The position numbers and the translations under genes are program-made. Shown here one piece after another: positions 11,216 through 35,321 of a DNA stretch of 64,000 nucleotides (positions within the stretch are counted from its first letter, which is position 1; every line of letters begins with the position of its first letter). Under the pieces are notes generated by a model that saw nothing but the letters and a program-made list of their open reading frames with translations, made no database searches and had not been told where the DNA came from. The DNA comes from a bacterium (lineage in GTDB: Bacteria > Armatimonadota > Zipacnadia > Zipacnadales > Zipacnadaceae): positions 62,001 through 126,000 of the forward strand of contig JAUWYY010000001.1 in assembly GCA_030615605.1 (NCBI GenBank). The letters are read 5' to 3'.

Positions 11216-11240
11216 GACAGCCGGGACGCCTGTCCTGCTG
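11216..11240 (+). repeat. Degenerate copy of GACAGGCG..CGCCTGTC palindromic repeat
   Basis: An imperfect palindrome (ACAGCCGGGACGCCTGT) shares GACGCCTGTCCT and its flank with the intact palindrome at 13442-13460. Both stand a short distance upstream of a ribosome site in the same operon (folD here, the metF-like gene there). Confidence 0.5.
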
Positions 11241-11264: not shown

Positions 11265-12122
11265 GTGAGTGCCAAGATACTTGAAGGTGGACCGATTGCC
11301 GAACAGATCAAAGATGAGATCCGTGCTGAAATTGAGCAGATGGCCGGGCCGCCGTGCTTGGTGGCGGTGATGGTCGGCGATAACGTCGGCGCGCGTATGT
11401 ATGCCAAAATGCAGGCCAAATCCTGCGACGAGGTCGGCATCGCCTACGAGCTTAAGGAGTTCACTGACGAGATCTCCGAAGCCGACCTGCTTGGTGAGAT
11501 TGAGAAGCTGAACGAGGACGAGGGTGTATCAGGTATTATCCTGCAGATGCCAGTACCCGAGCATATCAACGCGCGTACCGTGCAGGCCACCATCGCCCCG
11601 CGGAAAGATGTGGATGGCGTGAACCCGACCAATTTGGGACGCGTTGTTATGGGGCATCCCGGGGCCGCGCCCTGTACCGCGCAGGCTGCCGTGCGGCTGG
11701 TCGAGGAAACCGGTATTGATCTGTATGGTACCGAGGTCGTTGTCGTGGGGCATAGTGAGATCGTGGGCAAGCCCGTTGCGCTGCTGCTGCTGGACGAGTT
11801 TGCTACCACCAGCGTCTGCCACATTGGCACCAGCGATGCGGGAATGCTGGAGGAGCATACCACTCGCGCCGACATATTGATCGTTGCCACTGGCGTACCT
11901 GGTTTAATTAAGGCCGATATGATCAAGCCAGGCGCGGCGGTAATTGATGTCGGCATCAACCGCGTGAAGGACCCCGAAACTGGTAAGTCCAAGACCGTCG
12001 GCGACGTTGCCTTTGACGAAGCTGTGGAAGTCGCCGGCATTATCACGCCGGTACCGGGCGGCGTCGGGCCGATAACCACGGCGATGCTGCTGCAGAGCAC
12101 CCTGCGGGCGGCGAATGTGTGA
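11265..12122 (+). CDS. folD: Bifunctional methylene-THF dehydrogenase / methenyl-THF cyclohydrolase
   Basis: FolD interconverts methylene-, methenyl- and 10-formyl-THF with NAD(P). The 285-residue product shows YAKMQAKSCDEVGI (the catalytic Lys region), LQMPVPEHI, KDVDGVNPTNLG, GHSEIVGKPVALLLL and PVPGGVGPITTAMLL. The GTG at 11265 was chosen because AGGAGG is 8 nt upstream; an ATG at 11260 is out of frame. Its C-terminus ends LRAANV. Copies of the same 3' end with LRAAQA and LRAAKA endings follow further downstream, so the present tail may be acquired rather than original. Confidence 0.96.
   Translation: MSAKILEGGPIAEQIKDEIRAEIEQMAGPPCLVAVMVGDNVGARMYAKMQAKSCDEVGIAYELKEFTDEISEADLLGEIEKLNEDEGVSGIILQMPVPEHINARTVQATIAPRKDVDGVNPTNLGRVVMGHPGAAPCTAQAAVRLVEETGIDLYGTEVVVVGHSEIVGKPVALLLLDEFATTSVCHIGTSDAGMLEEHTTRADILIVATGVPGLIKADMIKPGAAVIDVGINRVKDPETGKSKTVGDVAFDEAVEVAGIITPVPGGVGPITTAMLLQSTLRAANV
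12059..12109 (+). repeat. folD 3'-end repeat, copy 1 (inside folD)
   Basis: The last part of folD, encoding GVGPITTAMLLQSTLRA. Bases 12059-12109 match 13351-13401 with one mismatch, and 12076-12109 match 12809-12842 exactly. It is the left boundary of two successive single-gene insertions. Confidence 0.85.
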
Positions 12123-12142
12123 ATGCGAAAGGACTGAAGGCT

Positions 12143-12787
12143 ATGGATTATGTGTCAGCCGAGCATGGTAAGGAGGCCTACAACTGTCCGCATTGTCTGG
12201 CTTACTCTCGCCAAGAGTGGCGGTATGGGCTAAGGGCCTGTGCACAGAAGGAGGGCGTAGGTACGGCGCATATGGTGGAATCGCTGTCCATGGCATTCTG
12301 CGACAACTGCGACGCGTTCTCCATCTGGTTCAATGATCAAATGGTATTCCCGGATCAGCCAACTGCGCCGCCAGCTTCACCTGATATGCCGGACGAGATT
12401 CTGACAGACTACGATGAGGCAAGAAGCGTTGCAGAAAACTCGCCGCGGGCAGCGGCCGCACTATTGCGCTTGACAATTCAGAAGCTTTGTACGCACCTTG
12501 GCGAATCGAGCGACAACATAAACGATGACATTGGCAGCCTAGTGGAAAAGGGATTGCCTGCCAGGGTTCAGAAAGCTCTGGATGTGGTCAGAGTAGTCGG
12601 GAACAACGCTGTCCACCCTGGGCAGATCGACATAAACGATAAGCCTGAAATTGCTCTGTCGCTGTTCAAATTGGTTAACATGATTGTGGATGTTATGATC
12701 TCACAACCGCAGGAGGTTAAAGAGTTATTCGAATCGTTGCCCGAGGGGGCAAAGAAGCAGATCGCCGAAAGAGATGGGGATGACTAA
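12143..12787 (+). CDS. DUF4145-like protein with N-terminal zinc ribbon
   Basis: A 214-residue protein of unknown function. Residues 14-17 (CPHC) and a second pair FCDNC near 53-57 form a probable zinc ribbon. The C-terminal half (SPRAAAALLRLTIQKLC, GNNAVHPGQID) matches the DUF4145 helical domain, which is often found in defence or accessory genes. AAAGGA precedes the ATG. The gene has no obvious promoter and begins 20 bp after the folD stop, so it would be read from the folate operon. Base composition is lower in GC than folD. Its stop is followed 21 bp later by a copy of the folD 3' end, so it appears inserted. Confidence 0.8.
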   Translation: MDYVSAEHGKEAYNCPHCLAYSRQEWRYGLRACAQKEGVGTAHMVESLSMAFCDNCDAFSIWFNDQMVFPDQPTAPPASPDMPDEILTDYDEARSVAENSPRAAAALLRLTIQKLCTHLGESSDNINDDIGSLVEKGLPARVQKALDVVRVVGNNAVHPGQIDINDKPEIALSLFKLVNMIVDVMISQPQEVKELFESLPEGAKKQIAERDGDD

Positions 12788-12808
12788 TCTAGTGAAACCA
12801 GCCGCTGA

Positions 12809-12842
12809 CCACGGCGATGCTGCTGCAGAGCACCCTGCGGGC
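12809..12842 (+). repeat. folD 3'-end repeat, copy 2
   Basis: Thirty-four bases identical to 12076-12109, followed by an in-frame alternative folD ending (..TLRAAQA then TAA at 12852-12854). There is no folD body upstream of it, only the DUF4145 gene, so it is a detached gene tail. Confidence 0.85.
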
Positions 12843-12959
12843 AGCGCAGGCGTAAGCAAGCAGCCCAACCATACACAATGACGATGGCCATGCGGCGAGT
12901 AGTCACAGGCCCTATGGCCTTAGTTAGTGGGGTGATCGAGTGTTAGGAGGAGAGTCGGC

Positions 12960-13334
12960 ATGCCAAGCAACCGTGGCGATATCGTGTCTCCGTTGAAGTA
13001 TGGTGTAAGGTCTCTCATTGTGGGGATACTTGGCTTAGGTTTCAGTTGCTTAGGGTATCTGTGGGCCCCATACGGCATACTCGTTTGGTGGTCCCGCGGG
13101 ACATCGTCTTCCCTTGCGGGGCATTGGGCGGTGTGGAAGGGTTGCTTGCTACTGGTCATATTCATTGCCTGGCCAGTATGCGGCCCGCTTGCGGTGTGGT
13201 TTGGGCGTAAGTCATATCGGGTAGAAAGTGCCAAGCATCTGGCCATACTGGGCATTATTATTGGCCTGATTACGATAGCCGCTTTGGCTTGCTGGTGGGT
13301 GCTTGTCGTGATGCTTATGATAGCGGTTGCGTGA
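12960..13334 (+). CDS. Small four-helix membrane protein, inserted
   Basis: A 124-residue hydrophobic protein with about four membrane segments (near residues 17-35, 55-72, 88-103 and 106-122). No family recognised. The ATG follows AGGAGGAG at a good distance, so it is probably translated. It lies between copies 2 and 3 of the folD tail and has no visible promoter, so it is likely a second gene acquired downstream of folD. A superficial likeness in size and topology to the inserted gene at 34885-35220 does not extend to clear sequence similarity. Confidence 0.75.
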   Translation: MPSNRGDIVSPLKYGVRSLIVGILGLGFSCLGYLWAPYGILVWWSRGTSSSLAGHWAVWKGCLLLVIFIAWPVCGPLAVWFGRKSYRVESAKHLAILGIIIGLITIAALACWWVLVVMLMIAVA

Positions 13335-13350
13335 TGAGATTTCCGCGCAC

Positions 13351-13413
13351 CGGCGTCGGGCCGATAACCACGGCGATGCTGCTGCAGAGCACTCTGCGGG
13401 CAGCAAAGGCGTA
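13351..13413 (+). repeat. folD 3'-end repeat, copy 3
   Basis: Fifty-one bases (13351-13401) match folD 12059-12109 with one mismatch and continue in frame to ..LRAAKA and TAA. The bases after the stop (gcgtaagcagg) resemble those after copy 2. This copy stands directly upstream of the metF-like gene and may be the original end of folD before the insertions. Confidence 0.85.
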
Positions 13414-13441: not shown

Positions 13442-13460
13442 GACAGGCGAGACGCCTGTC
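13442..13460 (+). repeat. Palindromic repeat GACAGGCG-AGA-CGCCTGTC
   Basis: A perfect 8-bp inverted repeat with a 3-nt loop, 27 bp upstream of the metF-like start codon. A diverged half copy lies upstream of folD. Dispersed elements with this GACAGGCG/CGCCTGTC core are, from memory, common between genes in Planctomycetota and similar genomes. Confidence 0.6.
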
Positions 13461-13486
13461 CTACTGTACTGACGGGAGGACAAAGT

Positions 13487-14365
13487 ATGAAGCTGTCTCA
13501 GGCATTTGCGGAACAAGACTTTGTGGTAACCGGGGAAGTCGGGCCGCCCAAGGGCGCAACTGTCGAGGAGGTACTCGCAGGCGGGCGGATTATGAAGGAC
13601 TACGTGACGGCGGTTAACGTCACTGACAACCAGAGTGCGGTGATGCGGCTGGGGTCGCTGGCCGTCTCGCGCTTGCTCAAAGAAGAGGGCATCGAACCGG
13701 TCTTTCAGATGGTCTGCCGCGACCGCAATCGCATCGCGCTCCAGTCCGATCTGCTCTCTGCTGAAGTCCTGGATATTGATAATGTTCTCATTATCACCGG
13801 CGACCATATGGCGCTGGGCGACCATCCCGGAGCCAAGCCCGTCTTTGGCCTGGATTCGGTGCAACTACTGGAGGTAGCCAGAGGCCTCAACGAGGGCCAC
13901 GATATGGAGGGCAACGAGCTGGAGGCGCCTACTGATCTGTGCCTGGGTGCGGTGGTCAGTCCGGCCAGCGCGCAGTTGGATATGCAGATTATGAAGCTGG
14001 AGAAGAAGGTCGAAGCTGGTGCCGAGTTCATCCAGACGCAGGCGGTATACGACCCGGACCGTTTCGCGGAGTTTATGGAGAAGGTGGAGGGTCTGGGTGT
14101 GCCGATTATGGCGGGGATTGTTCCGGTCAAGTCGGCGGGTATGGCCAAATATATGAACGCTAACGTCGCCGGCGTCCAGGTCCCCGATTGGATAGTCGAG
14201 CGGATGGCTGAGACTGCCAAAGAAGACCGCAAGCAGGTGGCCACCGAGATAACCGCGGAGTTCATTCGCGACATCAGGGATATCTGCCAGGGCGCTCATA
14301 TTATGCCGCAGGGCTGGGACGATATGATTCCCGGTACCGTGAAGCTGGCCGGCCTGGCCGATTGA
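13487..14365 (+). CDS. Methylenetetrahydrofolate reductase family protein
   Basis: A 292-residue MetF-like TIM-barrel flavoprotein expected to reduce 5,10-methylene-THF to 5-methyl-THF. Supporting segments are VTGEVGPPKGA at the N-terminus, AVNVTDNQSA, VFQMVCRDRNRIALQSDLL, ITGDH and GAEFIQTQAVYD. It resembles the short MetF forms found beside folD/fchA in organisms using methyl-THF pathways, in which a partner subunit (MetV) may be needed. No MetV is in the window. GGGAGGAC precedes the ATG. It closes the one-carbon set and is separated from folD only by the inserted genes. Confidence 0.9.
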   Translation: MKLSQAFAEQDFVVTGEVGPPKGATVEEVLAGGRIMKDYVTAVNVTDNQSAVMRLGSLAVSRLLKEEGIEPVFQMVCRDRNRIALQSDLLSAEVLDIDNVLIITGDHMALGDHPGAKPVFGLDSVQLLEVARGLNEGHDMEGNELEAPTDLCLGAVVSPASAQLDMQIMKLEKKVEAGAEFIQTQAVYDPDRFAEFMEKVEGLGVPIMAGIVPVKSAGMAKYMNANVAGVQVPDWIVERMAETAKEDRKQVATEITAEFIRDIRDICQGAHIMPQGWDDMIPGTVKLAGLAD

Positions 14366-34742: not shown

Positions 34743-34845
34743 GTTGGGAACCCTTTGCCTCCTTTCCCTTTACGCTATACTTGTATGGCCCTTGATAGCG
34801 TGGCGGCGGCTATTCTTCCCGCCGAAGCCAGAGGGCGAGGAATAG
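34743..34845 (+). pseudogene. Tail fragment of small membrane protein, copy A
   Basis: An open frame encoding LGTLCLLSLYAILVWPLIAW followed by RRLFFPPKPEGEE and TAG. It lies right at the transcription start predicted from the upstream promoter and has no ribosome site or good start codon, so it looks like the 3' end of a gene whose front part is lost. Its last 36 bp (34813-34848) recur at 35286-35321. Confidence 0.55.
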
Positions 34846-34848
34846 CCC
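34813..34848 (+). repeat. 36-bp gene-tail direct repeat, copy A
   Basis: Matches 35286-35321 at 35 of 36 positions, including the TAG stop and the next three bases. It encodes FFPP..EGEE. Direct repeats 473 bp apart flank the gene at 34885-35220. Confidence 0.8.
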
Positions 34849-35228: not shown

Positions 35229-35318
35229 GTCTGGGTGCTCATCCGCGTCCTCATCATCTGGCCGTTGGCCACGCGCCGCCAGTTGTTCTTCCCGCCGAAG
35301 CAAGAGGGCGAGGAATAG
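35229..35318 (+). pseudogene. Tail fragment of small membrane protein, copy B
   Basis: An open frame without a good start encodes VWVLIRVLIIWPLATRRQ then LFFPPKQEGEE and TAG. It is the diverged counterpart of 34743-34845: the WPL..RR.LFFPPK.EGEE pattern is kept and the DNA identity is highest in the last 36 bp. The remaining gap to relA (35322-35486) shows no gene. Confidence 0.55.
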
Positions 35319-35321
35319 CCC
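35286..35321 (+). repeat. 36-bp gene-tail direct repeat, copy B
   Basis: Second copy of the tail at 34813-34848, with one mismatch, located downstream of the small membrane gene and 166 bp before relA. Confidence 0.8.

Follow-up and report, generated by a model that had tools for sequence, protein, structure and literature searches.

The folD-metF locus and its inserts

The window, a stretch of 64,000 nucleotides from the genome of an uncultured bacterium (G000) whose relatives suggest the class Zipacnadia of the Armatimonadota (PMC10290634), carries a full-length folD gene followed by two small inserts, each closed by a further copy of the folD 3' end, and then by metF (Table 1). This arrangement of three direct folD-end copies around two single-gene inserts, proposed in the earlier note, was recovered by a repeat search and by alignment with four congeners compared at folD-metF (G005, G004, G001 and G006). 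The core shared by the copies is real, with one mismatch in the last copy, and measures 35 nt rather than the 34 bp first given: the first two copies of it (12075-12109 and 12808-12842) are identical and the third (13367-13401) carries the mismatch, whereas shuffled sequence gives an expectation of zero matches by chance. The longer match between copies 1 and 3, put at 51 bp, extends over 57 nt at 95% identity, and copies 2 and 3 share 90% over 61 nt. The three reading frames end in LRAANV, LRAAQA and LRAAKA, each before a stop, as had been read. No other copy of the folD end occurs in the whole 2.89 Mb genome, and no known RNA element was found within the repeats. Insert 1 starts within the final codons of folD, and alignment with the four congeners indicates that its junction supplies the last two codons and the stop (AAT GTG TGA), so that the protein now ends in NV. 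The GC content of the inserts (0.525 and 0.538) is lower than that of folD and metF (0.59). A palindromic REP-like element (ACAGGCGAGACGCCTGTCC) lies 5' of both folD and metF (window 11217-11238 and 13443-13464), and is present there in the congeners too.

Table 1. Features of the folD-metF locus (window coordinates) and long overlaps at G000 versus G005 indels
Feature	Position	Strand	Basis or remark
folD, full length	11265..12122	+	Pfam; alignment with G006/G005/G004/G001
Copy 1, folD 3' end joined to folD body	12059..12113 (repeat search: 12059-12120)	+	Repeat search, alignment
Insert 1, about 690 bp	12114..12800	+	Not at this place in congeners
Insert 1 gene, 214 aa, DUF4145 (HEPN-type), predicted PD-T7-4 anti-phage family	12143..12787	+	Pfam; PADLOC
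Copy 2, folD 3' end, stop and a few nt past the stop	12801..12861 (repeat search: 12792-12853)	+	Repeat search, alignment
Insert 2, about 490 bp	12862..13350	+	Not at this place in congeners
Insert 2 gene, 124 aa small membrane protein	12960..13334	+	Distantly like DUF4190-type proteins
Copy 3, running straight into the native folD-metF spacer	13351..13412	+	Repeat search, alignment
metF, next gene in the ancestral order	13487..14365	+	Pfam; directly 3' of folD in G005, G004, G001, G006
Indel at folD			55 bp overlap
Indel at MttB	C12:41521		139 bp overlap
Indel	C12:187705		90 bp overlap
Indel at a methyltransferase	C9:2314		151 bp overlap

Pfam analysis of the insert 1 protein reports DUF4145 (E=6e-15), in agreement with the earlier reading of this gene, and DUF4145 is a member of the HEPN superfamily (PMC3710099). 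The protein also matches the PADLOC model PD-T7-4 nearly from end to end (E=1.5e-86, residues 2-212, model positions 3-208 of 211), and is thus a predicted member of this single-gene phage-defence family. Its relatives are found on Streptococcus and Vibrio phages or prophages and on plasmids (25-48% identity among the matches listed), and a scan of viral contigs returned one distant relative; by these similarities, insert 1 is assigned to a mobile defence family. It probably supplies the cell with a PD-T7-4-type defence gene which, as its orientation suggests, would be read from the folate operon. The insert 2 protein did not return any family match in Pfam and further profile searches. Weak relatives exist in its own genome and family, one of those in its own genome having a sub-threshold DUF4190 match. 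A small membrane gene distantly like that of insert 2 lies, without flanking repeats, between fliP and fliQ in the flagellar operon (L122 1468-1896).

The ORF list and Pfam report no transposase-like ORF in either insert, none of the local ORFs was recognised as a recombinase gene, and terminal inverted repeats are lacking at the inserts, the inverted pairs detected lying elsewhere than the insert ends. The claim that no integrase or transposase is present holds for the local ORFs; genome-wide, however, tyrosine recombinases give 27 matches, ten of which are located on one contig of 184 kb (C11).

Empty sites in congeners and divergence of the folD tails

In G005 (also JAUVZM010000023.1), G004, G001 and G006, a single copy of the folD end is directly followed by metF, which are the empty sites that the earlier note had proposed to look for. 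Both inserts are therefore gains. Alignment of G000 with G005 returns the whole array as 1237 bp extra in G000 with a target overlap of 55 bp, and when the sequences outside copies 1 and 3 are joined, they match contiguously in G005 and G004. The genes of inserts 1 and 2 were not found at folD-metF in the other genomes searched. The folD neighbour metF has a tail copy of its own: in G005 (C10 18742-18890) and G006 (C242 2001-2162), the small native gene that comes next is followed by a decayed duplicate of the metF 3' end. This duplicate was not found in G000 or G004, and it has no evident cargo, which counts against the reading of such scars as insertions with long target duplication.

The tails of the three copies compare differently with the congeners. 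Copy 2, ending in LRAAQA, is identical to G006 from ACCACGG to TAAG, and the QA tail is that of both G006 and G005. The NV tail arises at the insert 1 junction, and the KA ending of copy 3 differs from the KA of G004 and G001 in the neighbouring codon, the spacer that follows it resembling that of G006. The copies differ mutually by 5-10% (3-4 differences in 46-55 nt), with 1-2 differences from G006 and 2-5 from G005. Since they diverge about as much from one another as from congeners, a comparison that fits copying in situ as well as donor DNA, the folD tails could have come with the latter. The copy states shared against G005 were considered as proof of duplication within the lineage, and this argument was dropped because three sequences cannot be rooted; G006 also undoes it, as copies and species form a near-star.

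Comparable structures elsewhere in the genus

The pattern recurs in the genus. At other loci, local sequence present once in a relative stands on both sides of an insert, the duplicated piece measuring 38-151 bp; these sequences are unrelated between loci, their targets being gene 3' ends, gene 5' starts and spacers. Self-comparison of contig C12 and further stretches reports numerous direct repeats, local and low in copy number, on either side of small genes. Over 137 kb aligned between G000 and G005, 4 of the 25 clean indels exhibit long overlaps (55, 90, 139 and 151 bp; Table 1). Joining of the flanks identified contiguous empty sites in a congener for eight repeat pairs, two of which are one mutS locus seen in both G000 and G005. 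Duplication lengths and sequences vary by locus and the cargos are unrelated.

At a locus named DUF2254 from its sequence rather than by a family search, copies of the gene tail flank toxin-antitoxin pairs of the BrnT/CopG and Phd/ParE types in G005 and G000 (families tested on the G000 copies), with other genes in their place in G004. The expectation of different cargo at the same joint is thus borne out here among congeners. In G000 (C12:200889-202417, L130) and G005 (C81, L143), two toxin-antitoxin pairs are separated by the DUF2254-like gene tails. The gene body has been lost from the G000 array, where the tails alone remain. This array of two toxin-antitoxin pairs (C12 200.9-202.4 kb) is common to G005, and no empty site was found for it. 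At G000 C12:53067-57700 (L125), a mini-mutS relic joins copies of the mutS 5' and 3' ends and stands 5' of two extra genes and an intact mutS. Because this relic keeps both gene ends, tandem duplication followed by deletion can leave similar scars, which counts against the long-target-duplication reading.

Under one fixed definition, G000 contains 18 local direct-repeat loci in 0.776 Mb, some of them ordinary repeats inside proteins; across 0.755 Mb from controls and from the same family, the number is 3 (p about 0.001). The same definition gives 16 loci in 0.661 Mb of G005, in stretches partly picked for holding repeats. In contrast, newly sampled stretches of G004, taken without selection, hold 1 locus in 160 kb. 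The within-protein repeats, the G005 selection and the low G004 count make the size of the excess uncertain. Insertion with long target duplication seems frequent in the genus.

Interpretation

Insertion with long target duplication was described from restriction-modification genes of Helicobacter pylori (Nobusato et al. 2000, Gene 259:99, as cited in PMC3031569, PMC1643837 and PMC3874152). This type of cargo is typical, but as an association and not as a strict definition. As in those cases, a small gene unit is gained relative to a related genome, with long direct target duplications of variable length (order of 100 bp), the insert being absent and the target single-copy in related genomes, and transposase and terminal inverted repeats being lacking. 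Unlike in H. pylori, the cargo is a predicted defence gene (HEPN/PD-T7-4) together with a membrane gene instead of restriction-modification genes, a single joint holds two inserts in tandem, and the host is a Zipacnadia-related bacterium. By its sequence features, the folD array is thus classed with insertion with long target duplication, with a different cargo. It probably represents two separate small foreign insertions at the folD-metF boundary, with target duplications of about 46 bp and about 57-75 bp. Against this, the presence of three folD ends at a single joint hints at something beyond random insertion, either a hotspot or growth driven by the repeats, and no insertion young enough for its copies still to be identical was seen.

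The proposal of a cassette-like array stands as regards the empty sites and the different cargo at another joint, and fails on gene-end specificity: elsewhere in the genus, unrelated sequences are duplicated in a similar way, gene 5' starts and intergenic positions among them, which argues that the folD end is not a special, dedicated join site. The inserts resemble integron gene cassettes as single genes in a codirectional tandem array, but the array repeats are folD coding sequence, and an integron was rejected as the genome has no match over the TIGR02249 cut-off for the integron integrase IntI. Elements that integrate at gene 3' ends and accrete in tandem are known, and the array, with its tandem units parted by copies of a housekeeping gene 3' end, looks like CIME/IME accretion. 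The 27 tyrosine-recombinase matches in the genome would also suit an array of tandem integrase-less (CIME-like) elements for which the folD 3' end is the attachment site of a tyrosine recombinase. This is nevertheless quite improbable: the units are of 0.5-0.7 kb (both inserts below 0.7 kb) and contain no recombinase, the left ends of copies 2 and 3 differ, and the duplications at other loci are unrelated in sequence, without a shared core, different in size and in part at gene 5' starts. Within folD, the 35-nt core is common to the three copies. A tandem duplication of folD whose extra bodies were lost and filled by other genes, for which the mutS relic offers a precedent, appears improbable as well, since neither a folD 5' end nor a decayed body, the remnant by which the earlier note would have recognised such an origin, is found between the copies, and the inserts are complete genes absent at this place in relatives. 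The genome is a many-contig draft and the array occurs in no congener, as an assembly artefact from mixed strains might produce; this is very improbable given that the copies differ, that exact shared stretches stay below 60 nt and that G005 and G004, which were assembled independently, show similar structures.

How the insertions arose is a separate matter. The duplications vary in length, their targets are unrelated and terminal repeats are missing, all of which disfavours a transposase or a single integrase. G000 and six congeners (all seven congeneric genomes searched) lack Ku, which makes classical end joining unlikely, and a Ku-type route was rejected for this reason. In the literature consulted, no settled mechanism was found for this class of insertion, described in 2000. 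Template switching is tentatively suggested: a broken chromosome end would copy a foreign fragment during repair replication, and the copying end would re-enter the chromosome upstream of the exit point, such that the target is copied twice. A second insertion may then have used the same joint, possibly via homologous recombination between the tail copies. Alternatively, a congener might have supplied each gene with a folD tail already attached, and a single homologous crossover would have brought it in, the tails being donor alleles. That the copies differ as much as species do, that copy 2 carries the G006 allele noted above, that the cargo at the DUF2254 joint differs between congeners and that a ComEC-type competence gene is present would all agree with such an origin. 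It is rather unlikely, however, as no congener was found with these cargos at folD and a first event making the gene-tail junction is still needed. Template switching in situ and donor-borne homologous integration are both possible.

Many such scars in one genus, several of them matched by empty sites in relatives, would open the mechanism to comparative testing, and they show how a core operon can take up a single defence gene with no recognisable mobile element involved. More speculatively, and on balance doubtful, the genus might have an active Ku-independent route by which defence genes, toxin-antitoxin genes and others enter operon joints singly and leave long target duplications, the copied gene ends then serving as homology for stacking into integrase-free cassette arrays. 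Elsewhere in the window, a 36-bp near-identical repeat stands on either side of a small membrane gene (34813-34848 and 35286-35321), and related repeats recur about 500 bp apart, in arrays, in G004 and G005.
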